Translations under genes and position numbers: made by a program | NCBI GenBank assembly: GCA_022729855.1 | Contig: DZBG01000010.1 | Span: 1 to 43,169 of the forward strand | DNA length: 43,169 nt | Source of the DNA: Bdellovibrio sp. | Lineage (GTDB): Bacteria > Bdellovibrionota > Bacteriovoracia > Bacteriovoracales > Bacteriovoracaceae | Direction of reading: 5' to 3' | Shown: positions 1-43,169 of the stretch, one piece after another | How positions within the stretch are numbered: the first letter of the stretch is position 1 | How the letters are laid out: the number at the start of each line of letters is the position of its first letter | Notes under the pieces: model-generated | Seen by the model: the letters and a program-made list of their open reading frames with translations, nothing else | The model's database searches: none | What the model was told of the DNA's origin: nothing

Positions 1-2
1 AC

Positions 3-54
3 AAACGTTCTGACGGTAGGGGCAGATAACCTGCACCACTTTAGGGACAATATC
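3..54 (+). repeat. Left copy of 52-bp terminal inverted repeat
   Basis: Bases 3-54 are the exact reverse complement of the last 52 bases of the window; identity ends at base 55. Read on the + strand in the frame of codon 4-6 it encodes the same peptide as the right-hand copy (start NVLTVGADNL), then diverges and meets a TAG at 61-63. It lies immediately upstream of a lipoprotein signal peptide that has no start codon. It could be a genuine repeat or a fold-back/chimera artefact. Confidence 0.9.
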
Positions 55-30388: not shown

Positions 30389-30424
30389 TTGAACCGTAAA
30401 CATTCCATGTTAGAATAATTCTAA
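30389..30424 (+). promoter_or_regulatory. Promoter of the Glt-like operon with palindrome over -10
   Basis: TTGAAC (30389-30394), a 16-base spacer and TAGAAT (30411-30416) form a reasonable sigma-70-type promoter 49 bases before the first gene. The -10 box lies inside a perfect 15-base palindrome TTAGAATAATTCTAA (30410-30424), which might bind a regulator that blocks the polymerase. Confidence 0.55.
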
Positions 30425-30464
30425 TTACTTAAATCAAAACTTCTTTGATAAGCGAGTTCTAGTT

Positions 30465-31172
30465 ATGAAAATGTTTTTGTCGCTTTTTGTTTTTATCTTT
30501 ATTTTAGGCGCTGCTCAAGCAAGTGAGAAATCAGTTTATGATTTTTCGTGGCTTGATCAGGATAAAGAAATTTATGTTCTACAAAATCGAAAGTTTAGAA
30601 AAGACGGACGATTTTATATTGGGGCCAATGGTGTGAAAACGCTGAGCGGAGCCTTTGTAGATTCATATGGTGTCAGTTTAAGAGCTGGCTATTTCTTTAA
30701 AGAAGATTGGGGAGTTGAATTTTTATACGGAAAAAATTCCGGAGATGAAAATGATACTGCTAAAGGTGTAAAGAGCCAGGGAACGGTTCCTTTCTATCGT
30801 AAGATTGATACTTATTACGGTGGACTTCTTACATGGTCACCATTCTACGCAAAAATAAATACCTTTAATCAAATTTTTTACTACGACTGGACCTTTGGTG
30901 CTGGTCTTGCTTCAGTAAAAACTCAAGATAATAGAGGAAAGTTTGATTCAATTCCAAGTAATGCTCTGACAAGTGAAGATGCTGTTGCAGGAATTTGGAA
31001 TATTGGTTTCAGATTTTATCTTACTCAAGCTTGGTCATTAAGATTTGATTTTACTGGTTTTCATTATAACGCTGAAAAAACAAATCGTCAGGGTTCAAGT
31101 GGAGCTGTTTCAAAGTCTAGTACACTAAATAGTACTTACGATATGGGCTTTGGTTTAAATTATTCATTCTAA
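30465..31172 (+). CDS. Outer-membrane beta-barrel protein, first gene of Glt-like cluster
   Basis: The 235-residue protein begins with a signal peptide ending AAQAS and ends in the strand TYDMGFGLNYSF with terminal Phe, typical of outer-membrane barrels. Amphipathic strands run through the chain (GRFYIGANGVK, YGVSLRAGYFF, WGVEFLYG, WNIGFRFYL, WSLRFDFTGFHY), about eight in all. It looks like the myxobacterial/bdellovibrio outer-membrane beta-barrel domain family that accompanies gliding and TPR clusters. By position it could fill the role of GltA, GltB or GltH of Myxococcus xanthus. It is followed after 15 bases by a TPR gene and opens an operon that ends at the terminator at 38695. Confidence 0.82.
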   Translation: MKMFLSLFVFIFILGAAQASEKSVYDFSWLDQDKEIYVLQNRKFRKDGRFYIGANGVKTLSGAFVDSYGVSLRAGYFFKEDWGVEFLYGKNSGDENDTAKGVKSQGTVPFYRKIDTYYGGLLTWSPFYAKINTFNQIFYYDWTFGAGLASVKTQDNRGKFDSIPSNALTSEDAVAGIWNIGFRFYLTQAWSLRFDFTGFHYNAEKTNRQGSSGAVSKSSTLNSTYDMGFGLNYSF

Positions 31173-31187
31173 TTAAGGAGAACACGG

Positions 31188-32609
31188 ATGTTCTCAATGA
31201 AAATAATTCTTGGTTTATGTATAAGTTTATCTCTCTCACCGGTTTTCGCTTCTTATAAAGATGCCGAGAGTTCTTATGGGAAGGGGTCGATATCACTTGC
31301 AGGATACAGAAGAATCCTTATTAATCTCATTAACGATGGTTATGCCTTCGCAGCTGTACCATGGATGAAAGATTATTTAGTGAAAAGTTCTGGCTCTCTG
31401 GATGGTGAAATGGAAATTGCTCTTGATAAGTTACTAACAGTGACTGGAGTACATCCATTTGAAAATCTTCCTGAGAAAATACTGAATAGATCACGCTCAA
31501 TTAATATCCGTTATATCTTAGCGAAAAAACTCTTTAAAAAAGAGCGATACCAAGAAGCGCTTGGGCAGTTGGGTAACCTTGATTCAGATCATCCTAATTA
31601 TCCGTTCTCATCACATTTGAAAGCTTCTATCTTATCAGTTCTAGGTAATCATGCAGCGGCTGAGATTGAGTTTAAAGATTGTGTAAGAGGCTCTCTGCGT
31701 GAAAAAAGCGATACGAAAAGCTTATTAAGACAAAGACAGCTTCAAATTAATCATGATTACTGTGTGGCCGGAATTGCAAGAAATTCTTTCGCCGTAAAAA
31801 ATTATGACAAGTCAGATCTAAGTTACTTAGATATTCCAAAGAGCTCTTATATCTGGCCTGAAATACTCTTTGAAGAGGCTTGGAATAGTTATTATCAAAG
31901 AAGTTATAATAGAACTCTCGGTAAGCTTGTTTCTTATAATGCTCCTGTTTTTGATTTTATTTTTAATCCAGAAATTGATGTTCTTAAAGCACTCACTTAT
32001 ATGCGTATGTGTCTATTTGAAGATGCTAAAAAAACGGTTGATACTTTTTATAGCTCACTTTTAAATCCTTCAAGAAAATTGAGAACTTTTCTTCTTTCAA
32101 AAGGAAAAGATTACTCATACTTCTATCAAATTGTTTCCGATCATGAGCAAGGAAAACCACTTTCTTTTGATCTCCTAGATACACTTATTAAGGCCTATAG
32201 AAAAGATATGGCCTATCACGAAATGAAGGGAAGCTTAACTGAAGCCTTAGTAGAATATAAAAGAGTGACGGAGCTTCCACGTTCGACCTTTAGATCAAAC
32301 CTGATGAGAAATATTAAGCAAACTGTTTCAGATTATCGTCGTTATATTGGTCTTGGAGCACGTGCTTACTTGGTAAAAACTTATGCTGATTTGTTTATTT
32401 CATTTCAAGATATGAGTTATATCAAGCTCGAGGTTCTAGCTCAGAGGAAAGAAAGACTCTACCGTACGGATGCTGTTGTAGGAAAAAAACGTGGAGATAT
32501 CCAGTATATCAAACGTAATGAAAAGCAATACTTCTGGGATTTTAATGGTGAGTTCTGGGCCGATGAATTAGGTGACTATGTTTTTGCGTTGAGGTCAGAA
32601 TGCGAATAG
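31188..32609 (+). CDS. Exported TPR-like helical protein, Glt-like cluster
   Basis: Residues 1-21 form a signal peptide (end PVFAS). The mature 450 residues are helical with degenerate TPR pairs: ILAKKLFKKERYQEALGQLG, then PFSSHLKASILSVLGNHAAA, and later LFEEAWNSYYQRSYNRTLGKL. It is probably periplasmic. A strong AAGGAG stands 8 bases before the first ATG (31188), favouring it over the ATG three codons in. By size and place it may correspond to GltC or an equivalent scaffold, but sequence identity is not claimed. The 3' end overlaps the next gene by 10 bases, so translation is probably coupled. Confidence 0.78.
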   Translation: MFSMKIILGLCISLSLSPVFASYKDAESSYGKGSISLAGYRRILINLINDGYAFAAVPWMKDYLVKSSGSLDGEMEIALDKLLTVTGVHPFENLPEKILNRSRSINIRYILAKKLFKKERYQEALGQLGNLDSDHPNYPFSSHLKASILSVLGNHAAAEIEFKDCVRGSLREKSDTKSLLRQRQLQINHDYCVAGIARNSFAVKNYDKSDLSYLDIPKSSYIWPEILFEEAWNSYYQRSYNRTLGKLVSYNAPVFDFIFNPEIDVLKALTYMRMCLFEDAKKTVDTFYSSLLNPSRKLRTFLLSKGKDYSYFYQIVSDHEQGKPLSFDLLDTLIKAYRKDMAYHEMKGSLTEALVEYKRVTELPRSTFRSNLMRNIKQTVSDYRRYIGLGARAYLVKTYADLFISFQDMSYIKLEVLAQRKERLYRTDAVVGKKRGDIQYIKRNEKQYFWDFNGEFWADELGDYVFALRSECE

Positions 32610-35485
32610 TTTTTGGTATTTTAGTCTTAATATTCTGTATGAATGTGGCCATGGCCCAAAGAATTTCCCTTGATGAAAGAAGGGCGAAGATTATTCTCAT
32701 TATTAATGAGGAACTTGAAGAAGTGAGCCGCTTGGCCAAAACTCAGAATTACTCTAACCCAGATACTTTACTTCGTATGTCAGAGTTGAACCTTGAAAAG
32801 GCCCGCCATTATCGTGAAGCTGAGAACGAGAAATTTCTAAGCATCGATCCTGATAGAAGAAGAAGCGTCTCTAAGGCCCAGTATTTCAAAACATCAACTG
32901 ATCTTTTTGAGAAGGCCAATGATATTGCTCTCAAAATCGCTAATAAATACAAAAGATATAGTGGACTAGGGGATGTTTATTTTATTCTTGCCAATAATTA
33001 TAAAGAACTGGGTGAGCATAAAAAAGCCAGAGTCTACTATGGTCTCGCTTCAAAGAAATCACCAAAGAATGACAAAATTACTGCTAAATCAAATCTAGCA
33101 CTGGCTGATTATTATTTTAATGAGTCAGAATTCTCAAAGGCCATTCCGCTTTATGAATTCTCATTAAATAGAACGAATGAAGCATGGTGGACTAAGGATG
33201 CCTACAATCTTGCTTGGTCGTATTACCGAACAAGAAGATTTGATAAGGCGATCAGCTTGATGCTTCAAGTGCATGACAAAAGTGGTAATGCAAAATATGT
33301 AAATATGCGTCCTCAGGTAGAGCGAGATATCGGCATTTTTTATGTTGATGCTAACAAGTTGAATGAGGCCATCAAATTTTATGAAAAACTTGGATTGAAC
33401 TATACAGAGCAGTTTTTGAAAATTGCCAACAATATTGCAAGCCAAGGTCGATTTGCTCAAGCGGAAAAACTCCTAGAGCAGGCAGAGAAATATGAAAAAG
33501 ATCCTAATCGCAGAAACGAGATTCTTATTTCAGAACTTGATCTCTTTGACAAATTTGCAAAAATTGAACGCCATCTTGCCGTATCAAAAGAGTTAACGGA
33601 GAAATTTCAAAAGCAACAACTGAATGCTGATCAATTTAAAAAACTTCAATACCATGTAAATAAAAAAGCAGCTGAATTACAAAAAGCTGTGGCTTCAAAT
33701 TTATATTCAAATGTGGCCAAAGTGAGATCTCTTAAAGCAGAGCAATCGATTGCTTATTTTGATCTTGCTGGGAAGCTATCTCCTGGTGATGAAGCTGAGA
33801 AAGTTTTTTTTCAAGGTGAAACGGCCTTTGCAGCTAAAAAATATGGTCGCTCAATTAATTATTATATGAAAAGTTATGATCTCTCAAAAGTGAAGGGCGA
33901 TCGTAAAATTATGGGTCAGTCGGTAGAGGGGATGCTTGCAGCTCTTGGACAAAATGTTTTTGTGAGAAATAAGCGTGCTGCAGGAAAATATTACATTCCT
34001 GTTTATACTAAATATTTAGAGACAGATAAGAAATCAGCGAGAGCAAAGTCTATTTATACAAAACTATTTAATGCCTATTTTGATAAGAATATGATCACTG
34101 AGGCAGAAGCCTTAATGCGTGATTATGCCAATGAGCATTCATCAGATTTAAAAACTCAAGAAGCCATGCTGGCCAAGGTGATGGAATATTATCGTCAGAA
34201 AAAGAATGATGCTAAAATTAATAGCTATATTGCAGCCATCAACGATGGCGAATTTAAAGTCTCACCAAAGTATGCTTCTACACTGAAAGCATTACAGACA
34301 AAAATGCAGATTGAAGGTGTTCAGCAATCTTTAGAGAAAGGTGACAAGGCCGTGGCCCTGAAGGGATATCATGGTATTTACTCGGGAGCCGATAGTACCT
34401 CAAAAGCAAAGGCCAATGCCGCTTACAACTTATCAGCTCTCTATTTTGAAATGGGTCAAAGTGATGCCAGTTATCAATGGGGGGCAGTTGCCATTAAAGA
34501 AATGGATACTAAAGATGTTGTAAAATTTAGTGATTCGATTCTCACAATTGCAACTTCACTTTTTTTAAAACAAAGATTTGATCTCGCCTCAGATCTTAAT
34601 CACCGTTATGTTTTAAAAACCTGTAAAAATAATAGTTCCAATAAAGGACTCTCATTTAAAAATGGGATTTTTCTCGCTCTTGCAGATGGGAAGATAGACA
34701 AGGCTATGGAGATCTATGATCTTGCCCCTGTTTGTCAAATCTCTGATGCTATTTTAGCTGATGTCGGATTTGAGCTTATCAAAGACCTCATGATTGTGAA
34801 AAGATTTGAAAGTGCTGAAAAAGTGATAAGTGATCTTGAAAGGAACTCGAAAAATCATGCCATGCTTATTAAGCCTCTTGATGATTTAAAGAATATCTAT
34901 ACTGGTGTAGGTGATAATGAAAAAGTGCGAGATTTAAGTCGTAGAATCAATTCTTATTACCAAGATTCTAAAAATAAAAGAATGGATATCCCTGTTGAGG
35001 CCGTTGATTTAGTAGCGATGGACCTCATCCCACGTATCCTGGCGAAGAAAAATCAGATTGAAGGAATTAAACTTAGTTTTCCCGAAAATACCTATAACTC
35101 GTTAGTGAAACAAAAATTAGCTCTCCTTGATCAGTTAACTGTAGAAGTGACGGCCATTCAAAAAACCGGTTCAGGTAAAGGTATTGTTGCAGCTTATAGA
35201 TTGGCGATTGAATCTTATGAGAACTTTGGAAAAGAAATTATGGATTTTACTCCTGAAGGCAAAGGAGATGAGTACGTCGTTAGTTTTAAAAAGGCCATGA
35301 GTAATGTTTATAACCCAATTCTAATGAATGCCAAAAAGCAAAGAGCTGAAGTGAAAAAGCTCATAGAAAATAATAAAATCCTTAGTGAGAATAATTCTGC
35401 AGTCATGTGGGGAAGTGATCCACTTACTCGTCAGTTTCTTCCTGATCAACCTGTGGTCATGATGGATAGAGGAGGTAGAAAATGA
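32600..35485 (+). CDS. Large periplasmic TPR protein, GltD/AgmU-like
   Basis: The 961-residue protein has a signal peptide ending NVAMAQ and then an array of TPR-type helix pairs along most of its length, clearest at residues 115-290 (YFILANNYKELGEHKKARVYY, LADYYFNESEFSKAIPLY, YNLAWSYYRTRRFDKAISL) and again near 595-640. No enzymatic motif is visible. It would be a long periplasmic scaffold. In Myxococcus the Glt (A-motility) locus carries a comparable long TPR protein, GltD (AgmU), followed by GltE, GltF and GltG, and here the next three genes match that order in type. The assignment rests on architecture and order, not alignment. Confidence 0.82.
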   Translation: MRIVFGILVLIFCMNVAMAQRISLDERRAKIILIINEELEEVSRLAKTQNYSNPDTLLRMSELNLEKARHYREAENEKFLSIDPDRRRSVSKAQYFKTSTDLFEKANDIALKIANKYKRYSGLGDVYFILANNYKELGEHKKARVYYGLASKKSPKNDKITAKSNLALADYYFNESEFSKAIPLYEFSLNRTNEAWWTKDAYNLAWSYYRTRRFDKAISLMLQVHDKSGNAKYVNMRPQVERDIGIFYVDANKLNEAIKFYEKLGLNYTEQFLKIANNIASQGRFAQAEKLLEQAEKYEKDPNRRNEILISELDLFDKFAKIERHLAVSKELTEKFQKQQLNADQFKKLQYHVNKKAAELQKAVASNLYSNVAKVRSLKAEQSIAYFDLAGKLSPGDEAEKVFFQGETAFAAKKYGRSINYYMKSYDLSKVKGDRKIMGQSVEGMLAALGQNVFVRNKRAAGKYYIPVYTKYLETDKKSARAKSIYTKLFNAYFDKNMITEAEALMRDYANEHSSDLKTQEAMLAKVMEYYRQKKNDAKINSYIAAINDGEFKVSPKYASTLKALQTKMQIEGVQQSLEKGDKAVALKGYHGIYSGADSTSKAKANAAYNLSALYFEMGQSDASYQWGAVAIKEMDTKDVVKFSDSILTIATSLFLKQRFDLASDLNHRYVLKTCKNNSSNKGLSFKNGIFLALADGKIDKAMEIYDLAPVCQISDAILADVGFELIKDLMIVKRFESAEKVISDLERNSKNHAMLIKPLDDLKNIYTGVGDNEKVRDLSRRINSYYQDSKNKRMDIPVEAVDLVAMDLIPRILAKKNQIEGIKLSFPENTYNSLVKQKLALLDQLTVEVTAIQKTGSGKGIVAAYRLAIESYENFGKEIMDFTPEGKGDEYVVSFKKAMSNVYNPILMNAKKQRAEVKKLIENNKILSENNSAVMWGSDPLTRQFLPDQPVVMMDRGGRK

Positions 35486-36378
35486 TGAGAATTATTGGTT
35501 TAGCATTAGTCTCACTTTTCATGATTTCTTGTTCTACAACTAAAAAAAGTTCTGAAGTTGATGTAGATAAAGTTTCAAACGAAGCCTTTAAAAAAGAGAA
35601 GCCTCTTCTCTTTGGGGCAAGTAATGATTATTATGCAGGATCGATGGCGGTTGAAAATCCTGCTTTGCAGGATGAAACAATTGATCGTCTCTCAAGTGAT
35701 GAGTTAAGTAAGATTGATCCTAAAGGGGATGAATTACTTGGTCTCGCTATTACGTGTGCTCAAGGTGATGAGAAAAATGCTGCAAAATTGATTGATGATC
35801 TCTACCAAAAATATCAAAATTTTCCTAGCTATTGGACTCAAGTGGCGAACTGCTATTTAAAGCAAAATCAGAATAGAAAAGCTCTTCTTTTTTACAATAA
35901 GGCCCTCGAGTTATCATCTTCATATGCACCGGCGTTAAATAATATTGGGATTCTTTATTATAGAGAAGGCCAAACGCAAAAAGCACTGGTGGCCTTTGAG
36001 AAAGCAAACGCTAAAGCCCGTTTTGCTAAAACTCCAAGATTAAATCTAGCTAAACTTTATCTAAGTTATGGTCTCGCTGATCACGCAAGGCCAATTATTT
36101 CTGGATTAGCGAATCAAACGCCAAATGACTCTGACCTTATTGTCACACTAGCGAATGTTTCATTTGTAAAAGGTGACTATCAAGAAGCTTTGAAGCAGTT
36201 CTTTAGATTAGATCAGAAGCTTTGGTCTCAAGCTGATATTGGATTAAATGTCTCTTATGCTCTTTATAAAATAGGGAAGCAAAAAGATGCATCAAATGTA
36301 TTAAGTAGAATTTCGAAACCTAAAAACTCACTTCTTAAGAATTATTATGAAGAAGTGAAAAATATTGTTGGAGAATAA
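35482..36378 (+). CDS. TPR lipoprotein, GltE/AglT-like
   Basis: The signal peptide ends LFMISC with the lipid Cys at 17, followed by a Ser/Thr/Lys linker. Residues about 110-260 hold four TPR units (YWTQVANCYLKQNQNRKALL, APALNNIGILYYREGQTQKA, LNLAKLYLSYGLADHARPI, VTLANVSFVKGDYQEAL). Being a TPR lipoprotein directly behind a large TPR scaffold and ahead of an FHA/AgmX protein, it corresponds well to GltE (AglT) of Myxococcus. It is probably anchored in the outer membrane facing the periplasm. The start overlaps the upstream stop in ATGA fashion; a second ATG immediately follows the first, so the protein may begin at either Met. Confidence 0.85.
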   Translation: MMRIIGLALVSLFMISCSTTKKSSEVDVDKVSNEAFKKEKPLLFGASNDYYAGSMAVENPALQDETIDRLSSDELSKIDPKGDELLGLAITCAQGDEKNAAKLIDDLYQKYQNFPSYWTQVANCYLKQNQNRKALLFYNKALELSSSYAPALNNIGILYYREGQTQKALVAFEKANAKARFAKTPRLNLAKLYLSYGLADHARPIISGLANQTPNDSDLIVTLANVSFVKGDYQEALKQFFRLDQKLWSQADIGLNVSYALYKIGKQKDASNVLSRISKPKNSLLKNYYEEVKNIVGE

Positions 36379-36380
36379 AA

Positions 36381-36629
36381 ATGAAATTATTTTTCATGAC
36401 AATTTTAATGTTTGGCTCTCTTTCTTTACTCGCTCAAGAGAAGAATATTAGATTTGAATATAAAAAATTTGAAAAATTTGATCTTGATGAAATTGGAGTA
36501 CAAGGAGAAGCTGGGTCACCAGGTGATATCTCAGTGAATCCAAGGACTCGTGATAAGTTTAAGAACAAGCTTCCGGAAAGACAAAATTTTAATAAAGAAA
36601 TGCGTAAGGCCATACAAGGCATAAGATAA
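36381..36629 (+). CDS. Small exported protein, position of GltF
   Basis: This 82-residue protein has a signal peptide (MKLFFMTILMFGSLSLLAQ) and a charged mature part of about 63 residues without cysteines or membrane segments. It ends with a basic helix (FNKEMRKAIQGIR). I recognise no domain. It lies 2 bases after the TPR lipoprotein and 11 bases before the FHA protein, where Myxococcus has gltF, so it is probably a small periplasmic component of the same machine. Its reality is supported by the signal peptide and the tight spacing. Confidence 0.75.
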   Translation: MKLFFMTILMFGSLSLLAQEKNIRFEYKKFEKFDLDEIGVQGEAGSPGDISVNPRTRDKFKNKLPERQNFNKEMRKAIQGIR

Positions 36630-36640
36630 GAGAGGATAAA

Positions 36641-38689
36641 GTGGATCTGCAAAAAGATGTTGCAAAGAAACTATTTGAGCTTAAACCTGTTGATAGCAAA
36701 CATAAGGTTAGGGCCGCTGTAGTTGGTAAAGGAAGAATCCTTATCGGAAGAAGTGAGAGCTGTGATGTGATCATTAATCACGAAGCAGTTTCAGCTATTC
36801 ATGCAGTGATGGAAATTCTTGATTCCAAAGCGATTATTTATGATATGAACTCTACAAATGGTTCTTATGTAAATGATGATAGAGTGATCGTAAAAGAAAT
36901 TTCTGTTGGCGATCATGTTCGCTTTGCTGATGTTGAACTTATTTTTAAAACTTACAATCCAATCGATTCACTTCCACCTGTACTTGATACTTTAGAACCT
37001 GCTCAAGGGCCAGCTTCAACTATTCTGCCTGAAGTTCCAGCTGTTCAAGTAAAAAAAGAACTGCCGAAAGCACCGGTCGCAAGTACTGTTCCACCTAAAG
37101 CTCCTAGTTTATCTGAAAATAGCTTACCATCAGTTGTTTATCCTCTGGCCAGTGATCCAAAAGCTGAGTTCAGTGAATATATTTTTGAAGATAAAGAAGT
37201 TCTTTATCCAATCTTTAAATACGATTCGGCTAAGCAAGCAGTCGAAGTGATTATTCTTTTTAAAGATCAGGTTTTTAGCGTAGATTATCTTCCTGAAAAG
37301 AACGGGACATTTTATATGTCAGGTCTTTTTGAAAAAGATAATGAAGTTGAATTTCCATATTTAGGCAGAACTGAAAAGATTCCTTTTGTTGATATTAGAT
37401 CTGGCACAATTACTCTTCAAACTCTTCCAGGTTATGATGTACTTGTTTTAGGTGATAAAAGAAAGACAACAGAGCATGTTGCGACATCAATTGATTTGCA
37501 GCCACAAGATATTGTTCGTTTAAGCAAAGAAGATTTACAAATTTATGTAAGGCAAGTTCAATCTCCACCCTCTGTTGCTCATGCACCAGTTTTTAAAAGA
37601 GATCCAGACCTAAGAAAGTATTTATTACTATTTCTCTTCTTAACAATTGCTTTCTCAATTGGTCTTAATCTTATTCCTGCCGATGAGGATGAAAAAAAGA
37701 AAGAAGAAGATCTCGCTCCCGAAAGACTTGCACGTATTCTTTATAAGCAACCACTCTCTGTGGCGAAAACTAAAGCTGTTGAAAAATCACCAGTGAAAGA
37801 AAAAACTGCTCAGAAAGCTCCTGACAAAGAAGCTGTCAAAAAAGAAGTTCCAAAAGAGCCACAAAAAGTAGTTAAAAAACCGGATGTGATGGATATTAAA
37901 CATCCATCAAACAAACCTGATCCAGGTAAGAAGACAGCGAAGGAAAAACAAGTTGTGAAGAAGGCCATTACTCCGCCTAAAAGACCAACTCCTCCTAAGC
38001 CTTCATCAGCAGCTCCTGCTAAAGCGCAAGCCCAAGCAGCCCCTGGTGGAGCGACTTCACAACTTGCGATGAAAACTGCAGGTCATGTTGAAGTTTATAA
38101 GTCTGCTGATTTCTCAAGTACAGTAAGTACAATGGTGGCCAAAGGTGGATCACTTTCAAATGTTTCAACTAAAGGTGCTGTTGGTTCAGTGGGATCACTC
38201 TCTGGAGCTGGTTCAGTTAGTGGGACTGGTACAGGGTCTGTGAAAACAGCGACGATAAGTTCTGATGTTGGTAGTTTAACTGGAGCTGCTGACGGTAAGC
38301 TTGGTGAATCTGCGGGGGCCGAAGGTCTATCATCGAAGAAGGCCATCTATACCGCAGGAATACCAGCCGAGACAGTTGTTCTTGGTTCAATGGATCCAGA
38401 TGTTATTCGCCGAATCCTGATGGAAAATCTTCCTCAGTTTAGATATTGCTACCAAAAAGAGCTGGAACGAAATGGCCTTGAGGTGAGTGGTGTTGTGAAG
38501 CTTAACTTTGTTATTGGTGCCTCAGGTAATGTTTCAGCTGCCGGAGTTGATGGTGGTTCTGATATCCCAGCAGACGTGAAAAGATGTGTGGTTGGTGTGC
38601 TTAAAGGTATCAGCTTCCCTGAGCCAATGGGTGGCGGTACTGTTGAGGTGAAACAGCCAATGAACTTTTATCCTAAGAAAATTAGATAA
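36641..38689 (+). CDS. FHA - TM - AgmX/PglI-C protein, GltG-like
   Basis: The 682-residue protein spans the inner membrane once. Residues 20-105 are an FHA domain with its phosphothreonine-binding residues (G36-R-S38, S51-x2-H54, then STNGSYVN at 71-78). A Pro-rich linker and a second beta-rich domain (about 165-305) follow. The single membrane helix is at about 327-346. Then come a Lys/Pro-rich periplasmic stretch (350-460), a Gly/Ser-rich stretch (470-565) and, from 585, the AgmX/PglI C-terminal (TonB-like) domain with C603 (FRYCYQKELERN) and C649 (KRCVVGVL) as a likely disulfide and FPEPMGGGTVEV near the end. This is the layout of Myxococcus GltG (PglI). GTG start with GAGAGGA. Last gene before a strong terminator. 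Confidence 0.88.
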   Translation: MDLQKDVAKKLFELKPVDSKHKVRAAVVGKGRILIGRSESCDVIINHEAVSAIHAVMEILDSKAIIYDMNSTNGSYVNDDRVIVKEISVGDHVRFADVELIFKTYNPIDSLPPVLDTLEPAQGPASTILPEVPAVQVKKELPKAPVASTVPPKAPSLSENSLPSVVYPLASDPKAEFSEYIFEDKEVLYPIFKYDSAKQAVEVIILFKDQVFSVDYLPEKNGTFYMSGLFEKDNEVEFPYLGRTEKIPFVDIRSGTITLQTLPGYDVLVLGDKRKTTEHVATSIDLQPQDIVRLSKEDLQIYVRQVQSPPSVAHAPVFKRDPDLRKYLLLFLFLTIAFSIGLNLIPADEDEKKKEEDLAPERLARILYKQPLSVAKTKAVEKSPVKEKTAQKAPDKEAVKKEVPKEPQKVVKKPDVMDIKHPSNKPDPGKKTAKEKQVVKKAITPPKRPTPPKPSSAAPAKAQAQAAPGGATSQLAMKTAGHVEVYKSADFSSTVSTMVAKGGSLSNVSTKGAVGSVGSLSGAGSVSGTGTGSVKTATISSDVGSLTGAADGKLGESAGAEGLSSKKAIYTAGIPAETVVLGSMDPDVIRRILMENLPQFRYCYQKELERNGLEVSGVVKLNFVIGASGNVSAAGVDGGSDIPADVKRCVVGVLKGISFPEPMGGGTVEVKQPMNFYPKKIR

Positions 38690-38694
38690 TCTCA

Positions 38695-38721
38695 AATGGC
38701 CCTTCGGGGCCATTCTTTTTT
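38695..38721 (+). terminator. Intrinsic terminator of the Glt-like operon
   Basis: AATGGCCC and GGGCCATT form a perfect 8-bp stem closed by a TTCG tetraloop and followed by CTTTTTTC. It stands 6 bases after the FHA gene's stop and clearly ends that operon before the ABC transporter genes. Confidence 0.92.
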
Positions 38722-38789: not shown

Positions 38790-39683
38790 ATGAAAAATTT
38801 CATCAGCTTGAAGAACGTTTACAAAAATTATGACAAGAGAGTGATCCTAGAGGACTTCAGTTTTGATCTCCCTGAGGGAAAATTTATTACTTTGATTGGT
38901 TGTAATGGTGCTGGAAAATCCACCACTTTGAGATTATTAGCTGGGGATGAGCCCATTACCAAAGGTGAGCTTACAGTTTTTGAAAAAGATCCTTATTCAT
39001 ATAGTTATCCTTTTAGAAAAGATGTTTTCCTCATTCATGAAAATTATGAAATTCATCTTCACCATACAATGCTTGAGATGATTAAGATTTATCGCGAAAC
39101 TTTTCCTCGTTGGAGCAATAAAATTTTCAATCAAATGGCCAAAGATAGAAAAATTTCATTAAAAAAGAAATTCTCAGAATTATCACGTGGCCAAAAAATG
39201 CAATTCTTACTGATGATGGCCTTGGCCTCTCGTCCAAAGGTGCTTTTACTCGATGAGATTACATCGGTGATTGATATAGATGGGCAACGCTATTTCCTAG
39301 ATTTACTGAAGCAATTTACTGTTGATGGTGGGACAGTTGTTATCACTACCAATATCCTTTCAGAGCTCAATGAATATACAGATCATTTAGTTCTCCTGCA
39401 GGATACTAAACTTAAACTCAATAATTCCGTCGCTCAAATCCAAGAAGATTTTGTGATTTTAGAGAAACTCAAAGATCATGAGATTTTTGCAAATACTAAA
39501 ATTTCAAAGATTAGATCTTCTGGCTATGATGTGAAAGAAATCTATCTCGTCCCTGTAATCCTTTATCAAAAATATTCTGATCTTGAAGACTGTCTCACTA
39601 GCTACAAACCAAAATTGGAAGACATCTTAATTTTCCATTTTAAATTTAAAGAGAATACCCATGAAGATGAATTGGTGGCTTAG
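38790..39683 (+). CDS. ABC transporter ATP-binding protein
   Basis: The 297-residue protein carries a complete ATPase: Walker A GCNGAGKST (residues 37-45), signature LSRGQKMQ (about 131-138), Walker B VLLLDEIT (about 151-158) and a switch region ending VVITTN where most family members have a His (here Asn/Thr). The C-terminal 80 residues are an extension of the kind found in exporter ATPases of the CcmA/NatA group. Substrate unknown. It overlaps the membrane-protein gene by 23 bases, so the two probably form one transporter. The ribosome site (TAAGACTTT) is poor. Confidence 0.9.
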   Translation: MKNFISLKNVYKNYDKRVILEDFSFDLPEGKFITLIGCNGAGKSTTLRLLAGDEPITKGELTVFEKDPYSYSYPFRKDVFLIHENYEIHLHHTMLEMIKIYRETFPRWSNKIFNQMAKDRKISLKKKFSELSRGQKMQFLLMMALASRPKVLLLDEITSVIDIDGQRYFLDLLKQFTVDGGTVVITTNILSELNEYTDHLVLLQDTKLKLNNSVAQIQEDFVILEKLKDHEIFANTKISKIRSSGYDVKEIYLVPVILYQKYSDLEDCLTSYKPKLEDILIFHFKFKENTHEDELVA

Positions 39684-40899
39684 GCTATACACGATTCCTA
39701 CATTAACAGAAGTTGCCAAGGCAGCTGGAATCAGTTTAGCTATTGATTTGTTAACAAGTCATTTTCTTAATATGACAGAAAGTGGGTATGGGCTTATAGC
39801 TTATATTTTTCTTTGTTATAGAATTTTTAGTGAAATCTATCAGTCGGGAATGGGAAGAAATATTGCCTTTCATAAATCTCACCACAATTTTAATGAACTT
39901 GATAAAGCGCTCACAGGTGAGTCTATGGCCTACTCTTTAGGTGTCGTGTCTATCATTTGGATGACAATTATATTCTCAAATTTATTTGGGGGAGGATTCG
40001 ATTCAAGTTCAGGGATAGGAAATTTATTATTTCACAGTTTTTCCATTTCACTATTAGGCTCAATTGCTATCTTTCTCTTCCTCTCAAACTTTAGAATGTA
40101 CGATAAAAAAGTCGAGTCTCCCCTGAAAAAGATGGGGGTTATAGGAAAACTTGTCTATTTTTTCACTGGTTATGCTCTCATTATTTTTTTCGCCTTTGCA
40201 TCCATTTTTATCGCGAGTCTGTTTAAACTTGAAATTGAGACTCTAGGGATTATCATTGCCATGGGGTTTACTATTGCTGGGATCATCGATCGCAGACGAC
40301 TCTATTTTCATTTGAGGAAAAAAGATCATACCATAAGATCTTATATTAAATGGTCTGTCCCTGGATTGGCCGGAACTGTTGCATTGTTTTTTGTTATTTC
40401 TTTATTCGTCGGAAGTGATTTTAATAACAAGAAGTTAAGTGCAGAAAATAAAGTTTTAACTTTAGATACTTGGAGTAATTTTTCTCCGAGATTTGAATTA
40501 GATGTTTTTAAAACAATACTACCTTATACAAACTACACTGATGCCGATTTGGCCTATATGAAAGCCCCTGAGGGATTTAAAGAGATTCCCGTAGAAGAAG
40601 TCCTGACTGAGTTCACAGTAGAGAATGTGACTCATTACTTCTCTTACTCTGAGCCTACTGAGAGAAATATGAAATATCTTAGTGAATATATGTTCGCTAA
40701 TATTGATAAGTGGAAAGATGAATACTTGGCACAAAGATTAGTAGATAGAGTTACTAGTAAGTGCAAAAAATGTTGGGTAAGTGATCATGAGAGAAAATTG
40801 ATTACTGAGAAAACTAAATTTAAATGGCCAAAAGAAATTCAAATTGAAAAACGAAGTATCGCCTCTGAGCCTGTTGAAACAGAATCAGAGGAAATTTAA
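39661..40899 (+). CDS. ABC-associated membrane protein with C-terminal soluble domain
   Basis: The 412-residue protein has about six hydrophobic segments in its first 260 residues (near 15-32, 38-56, 90-107, 125-142, 165-185, 188-206, 235-254). A soluble C-terminal domain of about 150 residues follows, with a CKKCW motif (CxxC) near residue 375 and an acidic tail. I do not recognise the family, but its start lies 23 bases inside the ATPase gene and it is probably the permease. The first ATG (39661) or one two codons later could be used. Its stop is 3 bases from the convergent OmpA gene. Whether the soluble domain is cytoplasmic or periplasmic is not clear from charge alone. Confidence 0.75.
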   Translation: MKMNWWLRLYTIPTLTEVAKAAGISLAIDLLTSHFLNMTESGYGLIAYIFLCYRIFSEIYQSGMGRNIAFHKSHHNFNELDKALTGESMAYSLGVVSIIWMTIIFSNLFGGGFDSSSGIGNLLFHSFSISLLGSIAIFLFLSNFRMYDKKVESPLKKMGVIGKLVYFFTGYALIIFFAFASIFIASLFKLEIETLGIIIAMGFTIAGIIDRRRLYFHLRKKDHTIRSYIKWSVPGLAGTVALFFVISLFVGSDFNNKKLSAENKVLTLDTWSNFSPRFELDVFKTILPYTNYTDADLAYMKAPEGFKEIPVEEVLTEFTVENVTHYFSYSEPTERNMKYLSEYMFANIDKWKDEYLAQRLVDRVTSKCKKCWVSDHERKLITEKTKFKWPKEIQIEKRSIASEPVETESEEI

Positions 40900-40902
40900 T
40901 GC

Positions 40903-42150
40903 CTATTTATAAATTCTAAACTCAACTCGTCTATTTGCGGCTTCAGTAGGGTACTGCTTAAGGGCAGCATCACCGTAAGCAACAACTGAGAGCTTTGATT
41001 CAGGAATACCATGTGAAGCTAAATAGCTTCTTACTTTTCCCGCTCTCTCTTCACTTAATCTTTGATTAAGTTGAGCTGTTCCTGTTTTACTAGCATAACC
41101 CTCAATCACAATATGTTTAATATCAGGATTCTTATTATAGGCCTTAACTAGGGTGTCGATTTTCACAGCTTGCTGGCCTGAGATCGCTGAGCTGCCATTA
41201 TCAAAATAGATATGTTCAACTTGCTGAAGAATACCTAATTTCTTTTCTTCATCTCTTTTTGTGACCTTAGGCTTTGGCATCTCCCTTGGTGTTGGCTGAA
41301 TGATTACTTCTACTTTTTTAGCTGCTTCGCTAAATTTTAAACCTGCAAATAAAGTATAGTTGTCACGGTCAAGTCTACTGAGTCCAGCCGCCCCTGCGCC
41401 GAAGTATGTCGAAAGGAAGCTCGTTGTTTTATGCTTCATTGTTAAAAAATATGTCCCTTCATCTTGGCCATAGTCATTTCTGACAACAAAATTTCTATAA
41501 GTTTCAAAGTTAGCATTCCAAGAATCGTTAATATCGTAAGAAAGACCTAGTTGGGCCAAGAGGAGATCTCTGTAATCAATAACATCGTAGATATTTTTTC
41601 GGCCAGTGAAGTAACCCACAGATCCTAGAATATGCCAATTACTTGAGAGATGCTTCTCGGCCACCGCAGAAAGAGATCCAGCGACTTCATCAACTGAAGA
41701 AAAACTATTTCTTGCACCAGTAGGGAGAAAAACTTGTGGGTTTAGTGAAAAACTCCATCCGTTTTCTTTGAAAAAATTAATTTTTGATTTTAAGACTGTG
41801 TCACCCATGAAGTAACTTGTTTCATCGTCACTTCTATTACGGTTGATGAGAGTGTCTGCTGCAATCGTAATATTATCTCTTAAGTAATAAGTGTAGCTAA
41901 ATGTAAAAGCATTGAACTGCTTCAAGTAAAGACCATTAGAGATATTATAATTAGTGTTAGTAATCGAAACAGGTGAGTGAATATGCGAAAAGCTAGCGGT
42001 TAAGACATAATTTCCAGAGAATTTTTCTAAAAGTGAGTCATCTAAAACTGAATAGCGATAACTGTCAGAGAATCGGAAAGTTTGTAAATTAACGGCCAAG
42101 AGAGGGGAAGTAACAGCGGCCAATACCGCTGTTAGAATATTTTTTTTCAT
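40903..42150 (-). CDS. OmpA-family outer-membrane protein
   Basis: The 415-residue protein starts with a signal peptide (MKKNILTAVLAAVTSPLLAV). Residues 20-285 are strand-rich with many aromatic residues, compatible with a beta-barrel. After a Pro/Lys linker, the last 110 residues are an OmpA/MotB-type peptidoglycan-binding domain: IYFDNGSSAIS, then IEGYASKTG, NQRLSEERAGKVRSYL, VAYGD and NRRVEFRIY. The Asp normally found in the G-H-T-D segment is replaced (GYASKTG), while the conserved Arg (NRRVEF) is kept, so binding of diaminopimelate may be altered. It lies 10 bases downstream of the anchor-domain gene on the same strand. Confidence 0.88.
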   Translation of the reverse strand: MKKNILTAVLAAVTSPLLAVNLQTFRFSDSYRYSVLDDSLLEKFSGNYVLTASFSHIHSPVSITNTNYNISNGLYLKQFNAFTFSYTYYLRDNITIAADTLINRNRSDDETSYFMGDTVLKSKINFFKENGWSFSLNPQVFLPTGARNSFSSVDEVAGSLSAVAEKHLSSNWHILGSVGYFTGRKNIYDVIDYRDLLLAQLGLSYDINDSWNANFETYRNFVVRNDYGQDEGTYFLTMKHKTTSFLSTYFGAGAAGLSRLDRDNYTLFAGLKFSEAAKKVEVIIQPTPREMPKPKVTKRDEEKKLGILQQVEHIYFDNGSSAISGQQAVKIDTLVKAYNKNPDIKHIVIEGYASKTGTAQLNQRLSEERAGKVRSYLASHGIPESKLSVVAYGDAALKQYPTEAANRRVEFRIYK

Positions 42151-42160
42151 TTAGAAAGTC

Positions 42161-43169
42161 CTACTTACATTCAATTTTTTTCTTCGTTTTGATCAATAGT
42201 TTTGGCAACTTCAGCATTCGTGTATCATCAGAGAAAACTAGTGATACTTTTTCACCTTTAATGACAGTTTGCATCTCTTTACTATTTAGATCAAAAATAC
42301 TTTCTAGATTATAAACCATTTTTAGTCTCATGCAGCTTTTATCACCACAATTCCACTTACTCTGATCAAATTGCTCAGTATAAAGAGCGCTTACTGGAGA
42401 GCTATATTTATCCCAGAAGTTCCAGTTTTTAAGAGCTTCCCATGAAGCGAGCTCAAATTCTTTTCCTGAACATTTTCTTACGTTCGAGCTTGTTGATAAA
42501 CACAGTGATTCAGTATCTTTAAAATTATCAAGAACGATTTTTTGAACCTCTACTCCAAAATTAATACTCGTCACTTCGTCTTTAATTTTTGGCATCTCGT
42601 ATTGAACATAAACCTGTGAGTCTTTTACTGTATACATATCAAGAGCTGAATAATATCCATTCACTTCTGTACCATAAAGAGTCTGAAGCTTAGCATCTGT
42701 TCCTGCTGCTTTTGCAAGGTAAGGAAGTACAGGTACCGCTGCTCTGGCTTTTGGAATGGCCGAAAGAACAATTTCATTCTCTTCATAGCAAACTTCTTTG
42801 ACCTTCCCTTTCCCTGAAAGACTTAGAAGAAGAGATTTTTTGTTATCAGTTTTTAAAGTAAGAGTTCCTGTATGTTTTCCAATTGCATTCGGTTTGTAGA
42901 TGATATCAATCAAACAGTTACCCGGTTGAACAACTTCATTACATGTTCCTCTAAGTCCTGGAAAGCTTCCTCCATTATATGAGAACTGACTTCCACCTTG
43001 AAATGATGTCTCAGTTATTTTCACAGCAAGAGATCCGATATTTGTAAGCTCAACTTGTTTTGCACTTGAGCTTCCTACTTCTACGTTTCCAAAATCAATT
43101 TTATTTCCAAGGATTTCGATATTGTCCCTAAAGTGGTGCAGGTTATCTGCCCCTACCGTCAGAACGTTT
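42161..43169 (-). CDS. Choice-of-anchor-D domain protein, 5' end beyond the window
   Basis: The frame is open to the right edge, so this is the C-terminal part (about 335 residues) of a longer protein. A GTG at 43024 is in frame but lies within a domain and is not a credible start. Residues encoded at about 43115-42790 form one ASH-like choice-of-anchor-D module: LGNKIDFGNVEVGSSSAKQV, ELTNIGSLAVKI, a two-Cys loop (TCNEVVQPGNC) and GTLTLKTDN. The rest is a Cys-containing segment of unknown fold ending KTKKKIECK. Such modules are usual in secreted or surface proteins of this bacterial group. The 5'-most 52 bases are the right-hand inverted repeat and are in frame with the gene. The OmpA-family gene follows. 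Confidence 0.8.
   Translation of the reverse strand, partial: NVLTVGADNLHHFRDNIEILGNKIDFGNVEVGSSSAKQVELTNIGSLAVKITETSFQGGSQFSYNGGSFPGLRGTCNEVVQPGNCLIDIIYKPNAIGKHTGTLTLKTDNKKSLLLSLSGKGKVKEVCYEENEIVLSAIPKARAAVPVLPYLAKAAGTDAKLQTLYGTEVNGYYSALDMYTVKDSQVYVQYEMPKIKDEVTSINFGVEVQKIVLDNFKDTESLCLSTSSNVRKCSGKEFELASWEALKNWNFWDKYSSPVSALYTEQFDQSKWNCGDKSCMRLKMVYNLESIFDLNSKEMQTVIKGEKVSLVFSDDTRMLKLPKLLIKTKKKIECK
43118..43169 (-). repeat. Right copy of 52-bp terminal inverted repeat
   Basis: This is the exact reverse complement of bases 3-54. Here the repeat lies inside, and in frame with, the anchor-domain gene (peptide NVLTVGADNL and following residues), so this copy looks like native coding sequence, and the left copy is the one out of place. 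Confidence 0.9.

Follow-up and report, generated by a model that had tools for sequence, protein, structure and literature searches.

The six genes at positions 30465-38689 of the window (the whole stretch of 43,169 bases that was analysed, namely contig C110 of a 2.80-Mb draft genome in 177 contigs) most likely encode the Glt components, the half that spans the envelope, of an Agl-Glt machine such as is known from Myxococcus and Bdellovibrio; the motor would be encoded by aglR-aglQ-aglS, convergent to them on contig C18, and the output is likely slow surface gliding and prey attachment or invasion. To this reading as a whole, we assign a probability of roughly 0.85. The locus belongs to the already known Agl-Glt type and is an ordinary member of it. 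Its nearest named relatives, of which the FHA proteins are approximately 55-62% identical, are MAGs of Bacteriovoracaceae and bins that carry the label Bacteriovorax stolpii. Hereafter, the Glt genes of the window type are referred to as set 1, and those of the type of a second locus of this genome, on contig C58, as set 2. The comparisons with M. xanthus and with B. bacteriovorus HD100 rest on curated profiles and on published papers.

Gene content of the operon

The ORF listing gave six open reading frames on the same strand with gaps of -10 to +15 bp, in the order barrel (OMP)-GltC-GltD-GltE-GltF-GltG (Table 1), as the tight operon of the initial annotation had it, and the translations show signal peptides and a lipobox (MISC). 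A promoter and a terminator of its own had also been proposed for the operon. The terminator, located 3' of the gltG gene, is a strong and clear one with a perfect 8-bp stem (38695-38714) followed by a T tail, but the promoter is a consensus match only (9/12), and promoter-like sites were rarer in the upstream region than in its shuffles.

Table 1. Features of the Glt operon, of the contig end and of the joined motor locus (window positions unless a contig is named)
Feature	Position	Strand	Basis
Promoter-like site, TTGAAC-16-TAGAAT, TG before second hexamer	30389..30416	+	consensus match only, 9/12
8-strand outer-membrane beta-barrel, GltA/B/H-like	30465..31172	+	TIGR04565, AlphaFold model, conservation
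GltC, exported helical-solenoid protein	31188..32609	+	NF033756, model, alignment
GltD-like exported TPR protein, 961 aa	32600..35485	+	TPR matches
GltE-like TPR lipoprotein, lipobox MISC	35482..36378	+	TPR matches
GltF (CglF), small exported protein	36381..36629	+	NF033764
GltG: FHA ~34-95, TM near 328-345, periplasmic linker, AgmX/PglI TonB-like C-terminus 584-676	36641..38689	+	profiles
Intrinsic terminator, AATGGCCCTTCGGGGCCATT + T tail	38695..38721	+	sequence inspection
3' part of choice-of-anchor-D-like gene, IS-interrupted	42161..43117	-	5' part on C18 beside aglS
Target-site duplication, 8 bp, GAAATCCT, in window as AGGATTTC	43110..43117	.	common to end of C18
Insertion sequence end, TIR GATATTGTCCCTAAAGTGGT, contig break	43118..43169	.	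C18 follows
aglRQS	C18:23207-24889		MotA/ExbB-type + two ExbD-type proteins

For the first gene product, the annotation as an outer-membrane barrel is supported: in the curated profile search it matched OMP_myx_plus (TIGR04565) with 101 bits (cut-off, 60), its AlphaFold model has eight long strands (pLDDT 83), and the best PDB fold matches of the model were OmpA/OmpW (E = 2e-7). By class the barrel is GltA/B/H-like, and its position fits GltA; in M. xanthus, the G2 cluster is gltK-B-A-C (PMC3169522), and its A-C end, with a barrel next to GltC, is matched by the barrel-GltC pair of the window. Each Glt set of the genome contains one OMP_myx_plus barrel. A motif, WLDxDKxxYVLQNR, is invariant on the N-terminal side of the barrel (window 30537-30602), and the stretch was recognisable in the alignment of other families of the phylum.

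Of the two exported TPR proteins described earlier, the one encoded from 32600 has TPR matches; the one encoded from 31188 is a softer case, being without a clear Pfam TPR and matching the GltC profile NF033756 (E = 3e-25; 89 bits; model positions 257-619; below the equivalog cut-off of 450), and its model is a helical solenoid (pLDDT 84) with a disordered tail. The likeness to gltD-E-F-G that had been noticed is thus correct but too narrow, since the TPR-like gene that comes first encodes GltC, which extends the match to (OMP)-C-D-E-F-G. No family-specific profile matched the putative GltD, a TPR protein of the right kind and place, of which the identity is suggested by position and co-conservation. 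As for the gene at 35482, TPR matches and the lipobox agree with the annotated TPR lipoprotein; the GltE profile match was weak (2e-5) and not the best-scoring one, and its identity as GltE rests on position. The small exported protein expected between GltE and GltG matched the CglF profile NF033764 (E = 8e-4; 19 bits; below the cut-off of 90) and was conserved, with a conserved motif, in 20 of 20 fetched relatives. The last protein has the annotated architecture, in which an FHA domain (E = 3e-14) and an AgmX/PglI tail (NF033768; 65.5 bits, over the cut-off of 40) flank a single TM segment, and it matched the GltG profile NF033760 (E = 4.5e-40; 138 bits; equivalog cut-off, 650); a PDB sequence search with GltG returned generic FHA domains only.

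The matches to the GltC, CglF and GltG profiles were on the right genes, which agrees with the Glt-like identity and the D-E-F-G order first proposed. None of the operon proteins reached a Glt equivalog cut-off, which makes them diverged relatives rather than equivalogs of the Myxococcus proteins. In comparison with the Agl-Glt system of M. xanthus (G1, gltD-J; G2, gltK-B-A-C; M1, aglRQS), the types and order of D-E-F-G are alike, and the AglR/Q/S motor type, the conserved aspartates and an MglA in the genome are common to both. In contrast to the separate clusters of M. xanthus, the window genes form one operon with the motor convergent alongside; the window set also differs in having one barrel, no GltJ found, and profile scores far below the equivalog cut-offs. 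The earlier epithet 'compact' holds only in the sense that a single barrel is present and GltJ was not found: only two AgmX/PglI tails were detected in the 99% complete genome, both of GltG, and neither GltI nor GltK was seen at either of the two Glt loci. GltJ is essential in Myxococcus; here, either GltG alone or another protein may do its job.

Proposed mechanism and output

By inference from Myxococcus, proton flow through AglRQS would move the inner-membrane protein GltG, which in that organism interacts with AglR and transmits force (PMC3169522, PMC5349195). The TonB-like C-terminus of GltG would span the peptidoglycan, aided by the periplasmic GltC, GltD and GltF and the lipoprotein GltE, its tail would touch the barrel cyclically, and the barrel would hand the force on to a surface adhesin; no adhesin is encoded in the operon itself. 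Two candidate docking elements can be assigned by our own inference. The WLDxDKxxYVLQNR stretch of the barrel is a possible docking site, that is, a TonB-box-like contact for GltG, and the C-terminal tail of GltC (GEFWADELGDYVFAL, window 32520-32606) suggests a docking peptide because it is near-invariant in the family alignment yet predicted to be disordered; its pattern GEFWxDExGxY was recognisable in the other families of the phylum.

By analogy with Myxococcus and Bdellovibrio, the machine likely serves gliding or prey contact. B. bacteriovorus has four tonB/agl operons (PMC2797640), and one of them, Bd0828-Bd0838, contains the same core set and has been put forward as the apparatus with which it glides (PMC3169522). 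Which machinery Bdellovibrio-like predators use for gliding is described as still unidentified (PMC13104615). The search for MglA suggested in the initial annotation found it on contig C5 (E = 1.7e-88 to M. xanthus MglA), the gene adjacent upstream being only weakly MglB-like (E = 0.05).

The main rival to gliding or prey contact, which we consider rather unlikely, is that the same machine has a non-gliding output, in which a surface polymer is moved or exported or the envelope is remodelled, as by Nfs in Myxococcus sporulation. The Nfs machine is likewise a Glt-type paralogue set in one cluster; it uses the shared AglRQS motor, whereas the window set has its own. Such an output would be in keeping with the Glt-like nfsA-H genes serving sporulation and with core sets found in bacteria without known gliding (PMC3169522), as well as with the lack of an adhesin in the operon and the absence of GltJ. 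However, the window contains no polymer-synthesis genes, MglA is present in the genome, and agl mutants of B. bacteriovorus are defective in attachment and biofilm predation: in an aglS mutant (Bd0838), prey attachment, killing and rounding fail (PMC6561027), and the aglR Bd1481 mutant and the Bd1483 mutant are less effective on biofilms (PMC2277423).

The motor and the contig break

The absence of proton-channel genes, from which it had been concluded that the motor must be encoded elsewhere or that the machine works differently, is literally true within the window, but the window stops at an insertion sequence (IS), beyond which the joined contig carries the motor genes at a distance of a few kb. 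The suggested genome search for AglQRS detected aglR-aglQ-aglS on C18 and on C58; the six ExbD-type matches of the genome are those of the TolR/ExbD loci on C80 and C130 plus two each on C58 and C18. The order on C18 is trxA, gmhA, aglR, aglQ, aglS, the start of a choice-of-anchor-D-like gene and the contig end. In the alignments, the TM aspartate (the proton site; Asp24 in AglQ as well as in AglS) is invariant in AglQ (80 of 80 rows) and AglS (80 of 80 rows), and the C18 AglR is approximately 63-86% identical to the AglR proteins adjoining the operons of relatives.

IS ends with the inverted repeat occur at both edges of the window (1-54 and 43118-43169), and a 15-base core of the IS was found in 24 copies in the genome, all near contig ends. 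When the 12 left-type and 11 right-type IS ends were paired (132 pairings), five pairings shared a duplication of 8-9 bp and the others shared at most 4 bp; the right ends of C18 and C110 are one of the five. A 4-bp duplication, ATAT, was considered and rejected, as these four bases are part of the IS end and the actual duplication comprises 8 bp. When the flanks were joined with the IS and one duplicate removed, an uninterrupted reading frame was obtained. The proposed C18-C110 join is based on three observations, namely the shared target duplication, the restored ORF and the synteny, and it places the stop codons of gltG and aglS approximately 5.5 kb plus one IS apart, in convergent orientation. 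The motor was seemingly missing because a mobile element broke the assembly at the edge of the window, and the false claim of a motorless machine can be removed. Besides the anchor-D gene, the region separating gltG from the motor contains a pair of ABC transporter genes and one OmpA-like gene (window 38790-42150). Neither the ABC pair nor the OmpA-like gene was seen at this place in the relatives examined, whose gltG and motor are separated by 6 bp to 3 kb. Note that the duplications pair C18-C110, C92-C110, C54-C103, C31-C123 and C115-C166, and are usable to scaffold the draft.

That the Glt set of the window borrows the motor of the C58 set, or runs without one, is very improbable and largely refuted for this genome. 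The window contig by itself contains no motor, a relative (G023) has a set-1 GltG with only a set-2 type motor, and Nfs shares AglRQS in Myxococcus; against this stand the AglRQS triplet on the joined contig, with its AglR so close to the operon-adjacent AglR of relatives, the target-duplication join and synteny, and the fact that set 2 has a motor of its own. An unrelated TPR/FHA secretion or polymer-export cluster is hardly credible and can be regarded as refuted, since, although the TPR proteins match many families in the curated profiles and the FHA domain also resembles the T3SS YscD-type domain (PF16697, 1e-9), the OMP_myx_plus, GltC, CglF and GltG profiles account for four operon genes out of six and follow the expected order, the operon contains neither an ATPase or secretin gene nor any export gene, and AglRQS is adjacent.

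Conservation in relatives and the second set

The locus of relatives reads AddA, OMP, C, D, E, F, G, convergent S, Q, R, gmhA and often trxA. Among 79 loci of Bacteriovoracaceae and relatives (70 informative, as 9 end too early), the motor is convergent downstream in 56 and on the same strand in 5, and 9 are without a motor within at least 5.5 kb; 18 of 20 separately fetched regions, a sample overlapping the 79, agree on the convergent motor, and it is also convergent in L247, from another family of the phylum. The six-gene order is far beyond chance because OMP-C-D-E-F-G is kept in 52 of the 53 related loci with full upstream sequence. A GltC-type match was found in 60 of 77 genomes of the phylum sample. 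In L156, L169 and L176-L178, the motor follows gltG directly on the same strand, as in Bdellovibrio-like genomes, and an inversion is the probable origin of the convergent motor. A Bdellovibrio-like genome of the same phylum (3.77 Mb) has the layout OMP-OMP-C-D-E-F-G-R-Q-S and differs from the window in the same direction of the motor and in its two barrels. Orthology with Bd0828-0838 was unsupported by the trees, in which the window set is inside a Bacteriovoracaceae-type clade, apart from the Bdellovibrio-like set; set 1 is more closely related to set 2 than either is to the two Bdellovibrio-like sets that were examined.

The order on C58 (L019:4385-15728) is vWA lipoprotein, OMP, GltC, GltF, AglR, AglQ, AglS, GltD, GltE, GltG. 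All core parts and a motor of its own are in common with the window set, but the gene order is different, a vWA/MIDAS lipoprotein stands first, and the core residues of the FHA domain are mostly lost. A role of this domain as a conserved phospho-threonine reader was considered and rejected, as it is not kept as a requirement across the rows of the two sets: in the window FHA domain the four canonical residues (R, S, H and N) are all in place, but of the 92 set-1 rows 60 have the R and 64 the S, and of the 19 set-2 rows 3 have the R (the rows partly repeat the same genomes). In the GltC and GltG trees, the two sets are together inside the family clade, with a longer branch for set 2, and in the AglR tree set 2 forms one clade beside or within set 1; an AglR tree rooted with the TolQ and ExbB of the genome itself was discarded owing to long-branch artefacts. 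The C58 set thus appears to be a faster-evolving paralogue, duplicated within its own lineage. Since the GltC, GltG and AglR trees agree that set 2 split as a unit, the simplest reading of the sequences would be one whole-machine duplication, with each Glt set retaining its own motor. In G023 (L072, L175), a 99% complete relative, a set-1 Glt operon and only a set-2 type motor were found, and motor sharing between the sets is possible there.

The vWA protein of C58 matches the NCBIfam Bdellovibrio MIDAS adhesin family (3.8e-15), and its gene immediately precedes that of the barrel in 17 of 18 set-2 loci of relatives (L205-L222). In B. bacteriovorus, Bd1483 is a MIDAS adhesin, and a mutant lacking it showed no defect on E. 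coli (PMC11003981); no mention of Agl or Glt was found in the text of that paper. Bd1483 sits at the end of the agl operon Bd1473-1483. This in-operon adhesin makes the second set a more interesting lead than the window set. We tentatively suggest, as a possibility still short of even odds, that Bacteriovoracaceae carry two lineage-duplicated dedicated machines, the slow set 1 (single barrel, no GltJ, convergent motor) and the fast set 2 with its own vWA/MIDAS adhesin, one of which may propel the cell while the other grips or drags the prey, and that one GltG may do the work of the GltG/GltJ pair. The family-wide one-locus Agl-Glt set with its neighbouring motor is a clean deletion target in cultured Bacteriovorax or Halobacteriovorax, and the conserved in-operon MIDAS adhesin of set 2 connects an adhesin family already known from predators with a machine that generates force, in a way that is directly testable.
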